DNA from: Polynucleobacter sp.
Lineage (GTDB): Bacteria; Pseudomonadota; Gammaproteobacteria; Burkholderiales; Burkholderiaceae_D
Assembly: GCA_021737945.1 (NCBI GenBank)
Contig: JAIPCX010000025.1
Span: 1-35,237 of the forward strand
Direction of reading: 5' to 3'
DNA: 35,237 nt
The position numbers and the translations under genes are program-made. The notes beneath the pieces were generated by a model. That model did no database searches. It saw only the letters and a list, made by a program, of their open reading frames with translations, and was not told where the DNA came from. This document shows positions 13,144 to 32,650 of the stretch, one piece after another; positions within the stretch are counted from its first letter, which is position 1; every line of letters begins with the position of its first letter.

Positions 13144-15075
13144 TCAAGCAGCGTCCGAACTATCGTTGGTGGCCGCTAATTGTTTGAGTCCGCCCTTCTT
13201 TAAATGCACCAGCAACAAAGAAATCGCAGCCGGTGTCACACCCGCAATGCGTGATGCCTGACCCAAGGTTTCTGGGCGATGGCGCGTCAGTTTCTGGCGA
13301 ACCTCCATCGACAAGGCGCGCACGCTCATGTAGTCAATGTCGTCTGGCAACGCTAGATTTTCGTAATGCTCATGGCGCTCAACTTCTTTGGCCTGGCGAT
13401 CTATATAGCCGGCGTACTTGACTTGAATCTCAACCTGATCAGCGACAGCAACCTCTAGCTCCGGTTGATCAAAGCGGCGACCATCTAGACTGGTTAAAGT
13501 CATCAGCTGTTTATAGCTAACGTTGGGGCGGCGCAGAAGATCAGTGAGTGCATACTCTCGCTCTATGGGTTTGCCTAAAACACGCTCTGCTTCGGCCTCC
13601 GAAACCATGCGCGGATTCACCCAGGTGGATTTGAGTCTTTCCAGCTCACGGGCGATGGCTTCGCGCCGACGCTCGAATTGTTCCCACTGGGCATCCGAGA
13701 CACAGCCCAGTTTGCGACCCACTTCTGTCAGCCTGAGATCAGCATTGTCTTCGCGCAAACTCAAGCGAAACTCTGCGCGACTGGTAAACATACGATAGGG
13801 CTCTTGCACACCTTGCGTCACCAAATCATCGACCAACACACCAAGATAGGCTTCATCTCGACGAGGAACCCATGGTGCTTTTTCTTGGGTTTGCAGAGCC
13901 GCATTTAAGCCAGCCAACATGCCTTGTGCAGCGGCTTCTTCATAGCCGGTCGTGCCATTAATTTGGCCGGCAAAATACAAGCCCTTGATAGCACGAGTTT
14001 CGAGTGAAGCTTTGAGGCCGCGCGGATCAAAGTAGTCATACTCAATGGCATAGCCGGGGCGCAAGACATGGGCGTTTTCTAATCCACGCATAGTTCGCAC
14101 CAGGGCTAATTGCGCATCAAACGGTAGGCTGGTTGAGATACCGTTCGGATAGAACTCATGGGTGGTGAGACCTTCGGGCTCGAGGAAGATCTGGTGAGAG
14201 TCTTTGTCGGCAAAGCGGTGAATTTTGTCTTCTATCGACGGGCAATAGCGTGGCCCCACGCCCTCGATTACCCCGGTAAACATGGGGCTTCTATCTAAGG
14301 CGTTCCGAATAATGTCGTGTGTTTGCTGGTTTGTATGGGTAATCCAACATGACAATTGCCGTGGATGCATGTCCGCACGGCCCATCACTGAAAAAACCGG
14401 AACCGGATCACTGTCGCCAGGTTGCTCAGTCATTACAGACAAATCCATACTGCGGCCATCGATACGAGGCGGCGTTCCGGTTTTTAATCGGCCTTGCGGC
14501 AACTTGAGTTCTTTCAGTCGCGCCGACAAGCTAATTGATGGCGGATCCCCTGCTCTTCCGGCGGAATAATTATTCAGGCCGACATGGATTTTGCCGTCCA
14601 GAAAAGTCCCGGCCGTTAGCACCACGGCGCGCGCGTGAAAACGGATGCCGATTTGGGTCACGGCGCCGACAACCCGATCGCCGGAAATGATTAAATCATC
14701 GACTGCCTGCTGAAAAAGCCAGAGATTTGGCTGATTTTCAAGGCGTGAACGTATGGCCTGCTTGTATAAAAGGCGATCCGCCTGAGCTCGCGTCGCCCTA
14801 ACCGCCGGGCCCTTAGAGGAGTTCAGTATACGAAACTGTATGCCGGCCTCATCGGTAGCGATAGCCATTGCGCCACCCATGGCGTCTAGCTCACGAACCA
14901 AATGGCCCTTCCCTATGCCGCCAATCGAGGGATTGCACGACATTTGACCAAGGGTTTCTATGTTGTGAGTCAGCAAAAGCGTCTTTTGACCCATGCGAGC
15001 AGCCGCTAGCGCAGCTTCGGTGCCAGCATGGCCGCCGCCAACAACAATAACGTCAAATTCTGAAGGGAAATCCAT
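13144..15075 (-). CDS. mnmG: tRNA uridine-5-carboxymethylaminomethyl modification enzyme MnmG
   Basis: This FAD-dependent protein works with MnmE (encoded at 28.4-29.7 kb) to modify the wobble uridine of certain tRNAs. The start at 15075 gives [18 protein letters not shown], the standard N-terminus with its dinucleotide-binding motif. A GTG at 15108 would sit on top of the predicted promoter. The family signatures [15 protein letters not shown] and [16 protein letters not shown] are present. The C-terminal helical domain ends with the MnmE-binding part. The length (643 residues) is usual. Confidence 0.97.
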
Positions 15076-15110
15076 GAAAATTAGCTGCTCAAGAAGCGTG
15101 AGAGGCACGA

Positions 15111-15139: not shown

Positions 15140-15155
15140 TGTTTCACGTGAAACC
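15140..15155. promoter_or_regulatory. parS site 1 (ParB-binding centromere)
   Basis: TGTTTCACGTGAAACC differs from the consensus bacterial parS palindrome TGTTTCACGTGAAACA at only the last base. It lies upstream of mnmG, 45 bases from a second site, and its cognate parAB genes are encoded nearby. Confidence 0.95.
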
Positions 15156-15184: not shown

Positions 15185-15200
15185 TGTTTCACGTGAAACA
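15185..15200. promoter_or_regulatory. parS site 2 (ParB-binding centromere)
   Basis: TGTTTCACGTGAAACA is a perfect 16-base match to the parS consensus. The symmetry extends two bases further on each side, giving a 20-base perfect palindrome at 15183-15202. The centre-to-centre distance to site 1 is 45 bases. Confidence 0.97.
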
Positions 15201-19235: not shown

Positions 19236-19528
19236 GTTTTTTCCTTTTGTAATTGTTATGCCGTTGTGGAGAAAAAAAAATCTAAAAATATGAATTACTG
19301 GTTTTTTTCACTACAACATTTAAGCAAGTACGTAAGAATACCTGCAATTTACCTACTCACGTTATGGCAACTGTGCATAAGCCTCTGGATAAGCCTCTGA
19401 GAGAAGCTGAATAACAGGCAAATTTTTCATACAACTGTTTTTTATACAAAAACAATCCTCACAAAAGTGCAGTCCTATTTAGAACTTATCTTCTTTTCAA
19501 TCCTTTGAACTTAAACAGTCTTTTCTTG

Positions 19529-19537
19529 TTATCCACA
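19529..19537 (+). promoter_or_regulatory. DnaA box, perfect consensus
   Basis: TTATCCACA. It is followed after an 18-base linker by a CTA-TTA-CTA-CTA tract and then the AT-rich region, the order described for the basal unwinding system of Bacillus oriC. Confidence 0.85.
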
Positions 19538-19555
19538 GAAAAGGGTCATCCTTAT

Positions 19556-19567
19556 CTATTACTACTA
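19556..19567 (-). promoter_or_regulatory. DnaA-trio-like tract
   Basis: The top strand reads CTA TTA CTA CTA, so the bottom strand carries four consecutive 3'-GAT/AAT-5' trios, the element on which DnaA assembles on single-stranded DNA. A second shorter set (CTA CTA TTA) is at 19582-19590. Polarity and position relative to the perfect DnaA box at 19529 match the published arrangement. Confidence 0.6.
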
Positions 19568-19633
19568 TCTTTAAATACAAACTACTATTAAACAACGTAT
19601 ATAAATATTTTTGAATTTTTTTACTTTATATCG

Positions 19634-19642
19634 TGTGGATAA
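19634..19642 (-). promoter_or_regulatory. DnaA box, perfect consensus (reverse orientation)
   Basis: TGTGGATAA, the reverse complement of TTATCCACA, sits at the right edge of the AT-rich tract. A second reverse box, TGTGAATAA, follows at 19668-19676. Confidence 0.8.
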
Positions 19643-19698
19643 AGCTCTTAATAACTACTACGTAAATTGTGAATAAGTTAGAAGGACTGAAACAAAAA

Positions 19699-20668: not shown

Positions 20669-20810
20669 ACGAGAACTTAAACAAACTTATCGTAATTAAG
20701 ACTGATTATTCATGAAAAGTATTACGGATATTCTAATATAAAATTTTATTTATATCAGATAGTTAATTATACTGCGGCGCAACAAGTCGTTTATATAAAA
20801 AGGAAATTTT

Positions 20811-25970: not shown

Positions 25971-26407
25971 TTAAGCGTGCGAGAGCAAACAATAAGCAAT
26001 AGTTTAGCCGTTTAACGCCCTCGTATGAAAGTGCACCTATCCATGAGATGTATAAAATTTTAGAAAACGACGCAGATTCTTAACTTTTTTATTACGCTTA
26101 CATCATTAGCGCAGCCGCATAAAACCATTCCAACATAGCATTGGATTGAGCCCGTCAGCTCTCCTACCATGGGGGTCCATCTTGTCTCGGATGGCGGGCA
26201 CTCAAGTCGTTCCTCGCCTTGCTTGCCTCGCATTTCAGGAGTGGACTCCACGAGTCCACTCTTTTTTTTCATCGCATTCCGTCTTTCGCGCGGAATTGCA
26301 GCGTGAAAAAATCGTCAGCACACCCAACATATCTTCTGAACGAACAATTCGTGCTTCAGGATATGATCTTAGTTTTCCAATTATTCATCCAAAATCTACC
26401 GACCGTT
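25971..26407. other. Gene-free interval of about 440 bases with a terminator
   Basis: This interval lies between the unrecognised gene (leftward) and the asparaginase (rightward). Its left part is AT-rich and presumably promoter-bearing. From about 26150 it turns GC-rich, with a local hairpin (CCATC 26177-26181 with GATGG 26190-26194) and a strong rightward terminator at 26239-26269. No protein gene ends there, so a short non-coding transcript is possible. Confidence 0.5.
26239..26269 (+). terminator. Strong orphan intrinsic terminator
   Basis: GAGTGGACT (26239-26247), loop CCACG, AGTCCACTC (26253-26261), then eight T (26262-26269). It is a nine-pair perfect stem. The nearest rightward gene upstream is the MOSC gene, which ends almost 1 kb away, with an opposing gene between them. 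The terminator is 138 bases upstream of the asparaginase start, so it either ends a small RNA or attenuates the asparaginase message. Confidence 0.9.
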
Positions 26408-26893
26408 ATGACACTGCGCATCATTGCTACTGGAGGTACATTTGACAAGCACTACGACGAGCTTACAGGCCAACTCGTCTTTAGCCAAAGCGTATTGCCT
26501 GCGGTTTTAGCGCGTGCGCGTTTAACACTCGAGGTGGTGTTCGAGCCGTTGCTTGCGCTCGACTCTCTCGAAATGCAAGCATCGCATCGCCAGCAAATCA
26601 AACAAGCTTGTAGCGATTCAACAGAAGATAGAATTGTCATCGTGCATGGCACCGATACGTTAAGCGACACCGCCGAGGTGTTGGGTACTTCACCATTGGA
26701 TAAAACCATCGTGTTAGTCGGAGCAATGATTCCTTATGAAGTGACCAATTCAGATGCTTTATTTAATTTGGGTTTTGCGATGGCTGCAGCGCAGCTATGT
26801 ACTCCGGGTGTGTATGTCGCCATGAACGGTCAGATTTTTTCATGGGATAAAGTTAAAAAAAATCGTGAGGCCGGCGTATTCGAGCGGCGCTAA
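26408..26893 (+). CDS. Short single-domain asparaginase
   Basis: This resembles the N-terminal catalytic domain of bacterial L-asparaginases, which hydrolyse asparagine to aspartate and ammonia. The start at 26408 (MTLRIIATGGTFDKHYDE) is chosen by family resemblance; the open frame extends upstream to 26219 but that part reads through the terminator. ATGGTFD carries the nucleophile Thr. HGTDTLSDTAEVL (about residues 80-92) carries the second Thr and Asp, and DKVKKNREAGVFE carries the expected Lys. With 161 residues it lacks the C-terminal domain of the usual 330-residue enzyme. Comparable short proteins are known in proteobacteria, so this is probably natural rather than truncated. No good ribosome-binding site was seen. 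Confidence 0.75.
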   Translation: MTLRIIATGGTFDKHYDELTGQLVFSQSVLPAVLARARLTLEVVFEPLLALDSLEMQASHRQQIKQACSDSTEDRIVIVHGTDTLSDTAEVLGTSPLDKTIVLVGAMIPYEVTNSDALFNLGFAMAAAQLCTPGVYVAMNGQIFSWDKVKKNREAGVFERR

Positions 26894-26962
26894 TCGCTGA
26901 CGTGCAAGTTGATTCCAGTACAAATTTTTTATGCAGTTTTAGCAAATGGATTTATCGAGACA

Positions 26963-28207
26963 ATGAAAATCAAAAATTATATTTTCTGCTTTTCTCTTTT
27001 GACGGCGAGCTTGTCAGCGGTAGCGGCATCGCCTTACAAAATGCCTTTACAGCCCTTGGCCGATAAGCCGGGCCTGTTAAAGATTAAAGGCTTCGGGGGC
27101 AGGGTGTTTTATGTGCCATCTTCGCTCTCCACTATCAAATGGGGTTACTTGCCAAATGCGAGTGATATACCGGTATTGACCGTTCCTTCTGGTGCGACAG
27201 TTGTATTTGATACGGTGTCGCATGAAGGCATAATCGAAGATCAAGGTAGAAATCCTGTTCAGTATTTTGGCTCGCATGGCGTGCCCTCACGCATGGTGTT
27301 AAACGACGCGATTGCAATTACTCAATCTAATTTGCCGCATGACTTTGCCAAAGACGGCCCACACATTGTGACCGGCCCAGTTGCCATACAAGGAGCAGAA
27401 CCTGGCGATGTGTTGAAGATAGATATATTGGCAGTCACGCCGCGTGTGCCGTATGGCGTGATTTCTAATCGTCATGGCAAGGGAGCGCTACCTGGAGAAT
27501 TTCCTGAAGGTGCAAAACCTGAGTCTGATGCTAGTTCAGCTGATCCTACAAAATTTCATAACGTGTCGGTATTTACACCGATACGTAGAACAGCACGCGG
27601 TCAATGGGAAGGCGTACTTAAAAATCAGCATGGCGCTGAAGTGACTTTTCCAACCGCACCATTTATGGGTGTAATGGGCGTTGCGGCAGATACAAATGAA
27701 TTGGTGCACTCTGTTCCGCCCGGCGTATTTGGCGGCAACATGGATGTGAAAGATTTGGGGGCAGGCACTACTGTTTATTTGCCGGTGTTTGTCAGCGGCG
27801 CTAATTTTTATACCGGCGATCCCCATATGTCGCAAGGCAACGGCGAAGTCGCATTAACCGCACTTGAACACTCGATGCGCGCGACGTTTCGCCTTACGCT
27901 GTTAAAGAAAGGTGATGCACGTATCCCCTCATCGTCAGGCACTTTGGTAAAGCCTTTCGGTGAAACAAAAGAGTATTGGATTGCGATTGGTTTGCATCCC
28001 GATTTGAATGAAGCGATGAAAGACGCTGTACGCGAGTCGGTACGCTTTCTTTCTGAAGTATTGGGAATGGATAGAGCGGTGGCGTATGCCTATTTATCCG
28101 CAGCGACGGATTTCAATGTGTCGCAAGTGGTGGATAGAACCAAAGGTATACACAGTTTGATTCGTAAATCAGATTTTAAAAAGGTGCGCGCCTCGGCACG
28201 CCACTAA
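26963..28207 (+). CDS. Secreted acetamidase/formamidase-family protein
   Basis: This FmdA/AmdA-family amidohydrolase releases ammonia from short amides in characterised members. The start at 26963 gives a clear signal peptide (MKIKNYIFCFSLLTASLSAVAAS), so the 414-residue product is probably periplasmic, unlike the classical cytoplasmic enzymes. Family landmarks are GPVAIQGAEPGDVLKIDIL, the VPPGVFGGNMDVKDL segment (metal-site region) and FYTGDPHMSQGNGEVALTALE. It is 69 bases after the asparaginase on the same strand; both could act on amide nitrogen. The exact substrate is not predictable. Confidence 0.85.
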   Translation: MKIKNYIFCFSLLTASLSAVAASPYKMPLQPLADKPGLLKIKGFGGRVFYVPSSLSTIKWGYLPNASDIPVLTVPSGATVVFDTVSHEGIIEDQGRNPVQYFGSHGVPSRMVLNDAIAITQSNLPHDFAKDGPHIVTGPVAIQGAEPGDVLKIDILAVTPRVPYGVISNRHGKGALPGEFPEGAKPESDASSADPTKFHNVSVFTPIRRTARGQWEGVLKNQHGAEVTFPTAPFMGVMGVAADTNELVHSVPPGVFGGNMDVKDLGAGTTVYLPVFVSGANFYTGDPHMSQGNGEVALTALEHSMRATFRLTLLKKGDARIPSSSGTLVKPFGETKEYWIAIGLHPDLNEAMKDAVRESVRFLSEVLGMDRAVAYAYLSAATDFNVSQVVDRTKGIHSLIRKSDFKKVRASARH

Positions 28208-32641: not shown

Positions 32642-32650
32642 TGTGGATAA
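32642..32650 (-). promoter_or_regulatory. DnaA box upstream of dnaA
   Basis: TGTGGATAA, the perfect reverse-complement consensus, lies about 120 bases upstream of the dnaA start. A single strong box here is the classic arrangement for autorepression of dnaA by its product. Confidence 0.75.

Follow-up and report, generated by a model that had tools for sequence, protein, structure and literature searches.

The chromosomal origin of replication (oriC) of this Polynucleobacter lies, in our reading, at positions 19236-19698 of the window (the whole stretch of 35,237 nucleotides analysed here), on the mnmG-parAB side and away from dnaA, with a probability of roughly 90%. A first-pass annotation of the same DNA had already inferred an oriC at this place, and the inference is supported by the anatomy of the interval, its uniqueness in the genome, its conservation in relatives and its position, with mnmG-rsmG-parAB and a parS-like site in the vicinity. 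An origin on the mnmG side is an already known arrangement and is not surprising. What appears to be new is the presence of the hexamer GTWWAC at the junction between a DnaA box and the DnaA-trios across genera, together with the joint absence of the hexamer and its methyltransferase from the window's own genus, neither of which is stated in the portions of the GTWWAC literature consulted; a function for this arrangement is presumed.

The interval is 463 bp long with a G+C content of 29.8%, and is flanked by an mmsA-like gene (- strand) and lysR (- strand), so that it is upstream of the former and downstream of the latter. It contains no open reading frame of at least 100 amino acids, as expected from the earlier description of a region with no gene, and it matches same-genus relatives at the DNA level. 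A box scan finds exact matches to the DnaA box consensus TTATNCACA at 19372..19380 (TTATGCACA, - strand), 19529..19537 (TTATCCACA, + strand), 19634..19642 (TTATCCACA, - strand) and 19668..19676 (TTATTCACA, - strand), the very set of four, two of them perfect, that had been claimed. The near matches that accompany them were put at two, and there are in fact three with one mismatch: TTCTCCACA at 19265..19273 (- strand), TTATCCAGA at 19384..19392 (- strand) and TTATACAAA at 19442..19450 (+ strand). The AT-rich tract, annotated as 65 bases of about 14% G+C, is recovered at 19566..19630 as the 65-mer with the lowest G+C content of the window (13.8%), and is probably the first DNA to melt. In terms of stability it is the second least stable 60-mer of the window, just behind one at 20712. 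This other region (20705-20770, between lysR and an MFS gene) is very AT-rich (15% G+C) and as unstable as the origin tract, and has no cluster of exact boxes.

The whole assembly contains 77 exact matches to TTATNCACA in 2,966,930 bases, or 0.012 expected per 463 bp, close to the value of about 0.01 first estimated. Four of these 77 sites fall within 305 bp of each other in the interval and form the densest cluster in the genome. At the genome-wide rate the Poisson probability of at least four matches per 463 bp is about 9e-10, to be compared with about 6,400 windows of this size in the genome. The runner-up is a group of three exact boxes in 527 bp (C2:8246-8772), and nowhere else in the assembly are there four exact boxes within 600 bases. 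Over the entire 35-kb window, with one-mismatch sites included, the number of boxes is not above chance (27 versus 29.5 expected). The special feature of the window is the clustering of the boxes, not their total number.

Within the cluster there is a module that resembles a known unwinding element. The main box TTATCCACA (19529) is followed by an 18-nt spacer, the tract CTA-TTA-CTA-CTA at 19556..19567 (+ strand; complement 3'-GAT-AAT-GAT-GAT-5') and the AT-rich tract, in this order. DnaA-trios in the sense of PMC8287927 (cited here from excerpts), 3'-GAT-5' triplets beside a DnaA box, are thus found at 19556-19567. The published search for DnaA-trios used a box-to-trio gap of at most 16 bp (PMC8287927, in excerpt), and the gap from the perfect box is 18 nt, therefore we claim for the module only a likeness to the DnaA-trio unwinding system. 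It shares with the BUS of Bacillus subtilis, as described in the excerpted text of PMC8287927, a high-affinity box, a spacer and CTA-type trios that run into an AT-rich tract, and differs from it in the 18-nt spacer, in the poor quality of the second box-like word (TTATCTATT, 19552) and in the inverted box at 157 bp. The inverted box lies upstream, and the distance between its start (19372) and that of the main box (19529) is exactly 157 bp, about 15 helical turns. DnaA probably acts at 19236-19698, and we can sketch how. It would bind the box cluster, including the inverted pair with its distance of 157 bp; a DnaA oligomer starting from the 19529 box would cross the 18-nt spacer onto the trios at 19556-19567; the AT-rich tract would then be melted to about 19632, and the helicase would be loaded there.

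The module is widespread among relatives. When the interval itself is used as a query, matches at E<=1 are found in 31 of 56 genomes (own included), many of them weak. Among 20 same-genus genomes 15 are matched at this threshold and five are not; 13 of the 15 matches were used as origin loci, and the weak ones in G004 and G011 were left out. The pattern TTATNCACA-N(18-26)-TACTACTA reaches further, with 89 modules in 66 of the 116 family genomes and 28 of the 44 genera (own genome and genus included); the reversed pattern, used as a control, matches once in the same 116 genomes, and the exact module is absent from 50 of them. The inverted box is also kept. The count covers exact modules that have 175 or more upstream bases, 36 in all. 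In 34 of them a box with at most one mismatch is found at 156-160 bp, namely in 9/9 from the window's own genus (all at 157 bp) and 25/27 from other genera, while an equally good box anywhere in a 40-base span was found in 12 of 1,000 shuffled controls. The absence of the boxes from close relatives with the same gene order had been proposed as evidence against an origin. This is not so in G013 and G019, which keep the gene order and have the site flanked by lysR and the mmsA-like gene; G019 retains just one exact box there. Two or three exact copies of the module, mostly 360-620 bp apart, are found in 21 of the 66 module-bearing genomes, possibly origins with several possible melting sites.

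The neighbourhood of the interval is also that of a typical origin of this family. The gene mnmG (gidA), which judging by positions in relatives is usually found close to the origin in this family, is at 13144..15108 (- strand), and a palindrome just upstream of it, TGTTTCACGTGAAACA at 15185..15200, matches what we take to be the parS consensus, with a partial one near 15143. In the window three genes separate mnmG from the origin and dnaA is about 13 kb away. Across 19 of the 66 genomes, chosen for large contigs (G069, G071 and G142 were taken as circular), the module is 1.3-20.6 kb from mnmG and 7-364 kb from dnaA. Origins on the mnmG/gidA side are also found in E. coli and Vibrio. The genes around origins vary in place (PMC2099444, in excerpt), and parABS is marked at the origins of Burkholderia cenocepacia in an origin figure legend (PMC7364216, in excerpt). 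The origin in the window resembles the mnmG/gidA-side Burkholderia origins (described partly in PMC7364216, in excerpt) in having mnmG-rsmG-parAB and a parS-like site in its neighbourhood and in being separate from dnaA; it is unlike them in its three genes between mnmG and the origin and in a dnaA just 13 kb off. Two findings limit this picture. The named loci around mnmG (80, with flanks of at most 10 kb, many of which end short of the expected place of the module, which in many family genomes is more distant) include seven with at least three exact boxes within 600 bases (L007, L009, L011, L018, L025, L076 and L079) and one with the exact module (L007). In G035, from another family, a matching five-box cluster with no exact trio run is about 118 kb from mnmG.

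One alternative places the true origin in the rpmH-dnaA spacer and gives the cluster at 19.5 kb another role. We consider this very improbable. In its favour, dnaA is only 13 kb away and the spacer hosts one exact box (32642..32650, - strand), which probably serves dnaA autoregulation. Nevertheless, this box is the only exact one and the spacer contains no TACTACTA run, so it lacks the make-up of a dnaA-promoter origin. The same holds for relatives: in 20 family genomes we find 1-3 boxes in the 1.5 kb upstream of dnaA and no TACTACTA in any of the 20, so that an origin of the box-trio type is not located in the rpmH-dnaA spacer. In addition, dnaA can be as far as 364 kb from the conserved module.

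GC skew, for which a minimum at dnaA had been named as a possible refutation, gives a divided picture. We fitted strand-corrected change points to the window and to sampled stretches of relatives (the window's own assembly consists of 50 contigs). The fitted change in the window is at 19.8-27.0 kb and is weak (drop 5.7), with dnaA a worse fit than the box cluster. In G073 the change (276-324 kb) is at the module (278 kb), not at dnaA (559 kb), and these two cases, the window weakly and G073 clearly, favour the module. In three others the change lies between: in G013 (58-62 kb; module 86, dnaA 49) both are about equally bad fits, in G019 (34-41 kb; module 18, dnaA 48) dnaA fits better than the module, and in G090 the change is at 250-258 kb (module 364; dnaA, at 0, is on the sample edge and was not scored). 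The signal of G112 is weak; a narrow scan puts the change at dnaA, and in a wide scan the best cut is far off (5.52 Mb, a coordinate past the record end), with dnaA still inside the fitted range and the module outside. G019 and G112 therefore favour dnaA over the module. Taken together the skew is compatible with an origin in this neighbourhood, but it is not proof of the exact site and is not decisive. We also observe that an asparaginase-like and an FmdA-like gene are separated in G013 (C41, about 58-76.5 kb) and G019 (C81, about 25-41 kb) by an extra block, roughly 15.7-18.6 kb long. The block is missing from the window (26219-28207), and the skew changes of these two genomes are in it or at its edge.

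The first-pass annotation had also worried that, with an origin at 19.5 kb, rpmH-rnpA-yidC-mnmE would be transcribed head-on to the fork. This objection carries little weight, as dnaA can point toward or away from the module in different members of the family. In 10 of 11 genomes with dnaA at most 75 kb from the module, the gene is transcribed away from it, and where the distance is at least 157 kb it is transcribed toward the module in 7/7 (G142, at about 137 kb if circular, was not counted). This distance-linked orientation suggests an old inversion.

Two other roles for the cluster, which is directly upstream of the mmsA-like start codon, are likewise very improbable: a datA/DARS-like site for DnaA titration or reactivation, or a promoter of the mmsA-like gene under DnaA control. 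Trios and an AT-rich melting tract are not known to be needed at such sites, the module with both recurs in many genera and is near mnmG in the 19 genomes with the distances given above, and no equal group of exact boxes is found elsewhere in the genome. With the interval read as oriC, the signature of box, spacer, GTWWAC, trios and inverted box at about 157 bp can be used for finding likely origins in many genera of a large family. Draft genomes are included, for which dnaA is a poor guide.

The spacer of the module has a conserved end. It is GTTAAC, GTTTAC or GTAAAC (GTWWAC) in 83 of the 89 modules and 62 of the 66 genomes, compared with 5.6% of shuffled spacers, and GTWWAC is found at this place in 25 of the 27 other genera that bear the module. 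Judging from module distances, in 81 of 83 cases the last base of the hexamer is in register with the trios and opens a triplet. The hexamer is also enriched in the origin cores of 20 enzyme-bearing genomes, picked from the 66 to spread over genera, with 81 sites observed and 19.0 expected; among seven control palindromes of the same form in this set one was enriched, GAWWTC (36 versus 19.0). As a separate observation, the 1.5 kb upstream of dnaA hosts 3, 6 and 3 GTWWAC sites in three genomes of genus g38 (L312, L313 and L314), and 0-2 in the other 17 genomes.

An enzyme for this motif has been described. The orphan methyltransferase BCAM0992 of B. cenocepacia, encoded between trpB and trpA, methylates GTWWAC on both strands at the fifth position (PMC7364216, in excerpt). 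The family enzyme was found with a PF01555 search, and at a threshold of E<=1e-20 it is present in 92 of the 116 family genomes. The B. cenocepacia ortholog (69% identity over 239 residues) is located between trpB and trpA, as described for BCAM0992, which identifies the family enzyme as the BCAM0992 type. The genomic context can differ: in L210 and L213 the methyltransferase follows a hisD-like gene, presumably histidinol dehydrogenase, recognised from its protein sequence. Cupriavidus necator H16 is also reported to have an orphan methyltransferase of this kind (PMC12645576). The closest solved structure is 8urk (406.7 bits), labelled just Methyltransferase, and our search for literature relevant to it found none. 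In relatives, an N6-methyladenine would thus sit at the spacer-trio junction, the methylated adenine of GTWWAC presumably being written there by the orphan methyltransferase.

The origins of B. cenocepacia contain at least two GTWWAC sites between two methylated DnaA boxes, and its plasmid just one such box; the position of GTWWAC relative to trios is not stated in the excerpts of the paper used here (PMC7364216). The window is like these methylation-rich origins (PMC7364216, in excerpt) in that its boxes are followed by G, giving CACAG at 19534, and the relatives of its genus are like them in having GTWWAC near the boxes. It is unlike them in that there is no GTWWAC in the window's origin and no GTWWAC methyltransferase in its genus.

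The interval 19236-19698 has zero GTWWAC sites, so it does not share the hallmark of a GTWWAC-methylated origin. At the spacer end, where other genera have GTWWAC, the window has CTTATC (19551..19556, + strand), and all 12 readable modules of the window's genus have CTTAT followed by C or T; the 12 come from 14 own-genus loci, of which L102 and L103 have no readable module even with mismatches. The BCAM0992-type enzyme is absent at E<=1e-20 from all 21 genomes of the genus, including the window's own (rated 100% complete); seven of the 21 assemblies are less than 90% complete. Weak partial matches to other methyltransferases are found in three of the 21 (best E 6e-14). The PF01555 matches of the window's own genome score far lower, and one that was scanned is a fusion with a ParB domain. 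This protein, in locus L222 (G000:C22, about 119-122 kb and 186 kb), joins a ParB domain to an adenine methyltransferase domain; two further PF01555 matches are found on the same contig, and these may be phage-derived. From sequence comparison, the window's genus appears to have lost both the enzyme and the GTWWAC site. We infer that the two losses are linked and that the methylation may matter for initiation.

The chief competitor of a linked loss is unrelated drift in one clade, with the hexamer and the methyltransferase disappearing independently. We judge this a substantial possibility, though well short of an even chance. The paired loss is confined to one clade and is effectively one event. 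Furthermore, we predicted that G062 and G074, the modules of which have no GTWWAC, would be without the methyltransferase, and this failed, as both have the enzyme; they keep GTWWAC elsewhere in the origin, at one and three sites, respectively. The sum over the 14 own-genus origin loci is four GTWWAC sites versus 11.1 expected, but TCWWGA is scarcer still (2 versus 11.0), therefore the depletion of GTWWAC alone is modest evidence. Against drift, every one of the 12 readable modules has the hexamer replaced, with hardly any change in the box and trios around it, and GTWWAC falls from 81 sites versus 19.0 expected in the enzyme-bearing genomes to four versus 11.1 here.

A stronger version of a linked loss is that of a family-wide methylation switch. 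Origins are known to be controlled by Dam/SeqA through GATC and by CcrM through GANTC, and GTWWAC methylation could form a third such system, either gating the loading of DnaA or blocking re-initiation when hemimethylated, with the window's genus having shed enzyme and sites together. We regard this as doubtful. Like the two known systems, which are discussed in PMC5390034 (in excerpt), the relatives combine an orphan adenine methyltransferase with an enrichment of its sites at the origin; unlike them, the motif and the enzyme are different. Neither GATC nor GANTC is found in 19236-19698 (zero sites each), so the interval is not of the Dam/SeqA type. The odds of a switch are lowered because the exponential growth of enzyme mutants is unchanged, from which the authors suggest a limited impact on replication (PMC7364216, in excerpt). 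The same source reports that the relative nucleoid size of the BCAM0992 mutant is up from 33.8% to 48.7% (PMC7364216, in excerpt), and a Dam/CcrM-like mechanism has been thought unlikely for GTWWAC near the repA of a Ralstonia megaplasmid (PMC5390034, in excerpt). A causal methylation link would help to account for the family-wide retention of an orphan methyltransferase, and the enzyme-less genus would then be a ready comparison for the bearing of methylation on chromosome replication. If there is a switch, the window's genus would provide a natural methylation-free origin.

We also searched for a second, independent loss. The 116 family genomes include 24 without the enzyme, of which three are from the window's own genus and two, G087 and G150, were set aside because their assemblies are incomplete. 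G150, at 82% completeness, has GTWWAC modules and no enzyme that we could find. For the 19 others we scanned stretches upstream of mnmG, some of which end at contig ends (the shortest has 186 bases), and for G025 a dnaA-side stretch was added. The exact box is absent from 12 of these 19 stretches and no clear module is found in the other seven. Around the densest boxes of these seven, GTWWAC is absent in six (G084, G072, G152, G091, G135 and G025; 0.43-0.66 sites expected in each) and found once in G078. Among five enzyme-less small genomes of genus g6, one has no DnaA box near the mnmG match, another has a box at about 320 bp, and the remaining three (L294, L299 and L300) have one or two boxes about 130-180 bp upstream of it. 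In these three the origin is likely to be directly at mnmG.
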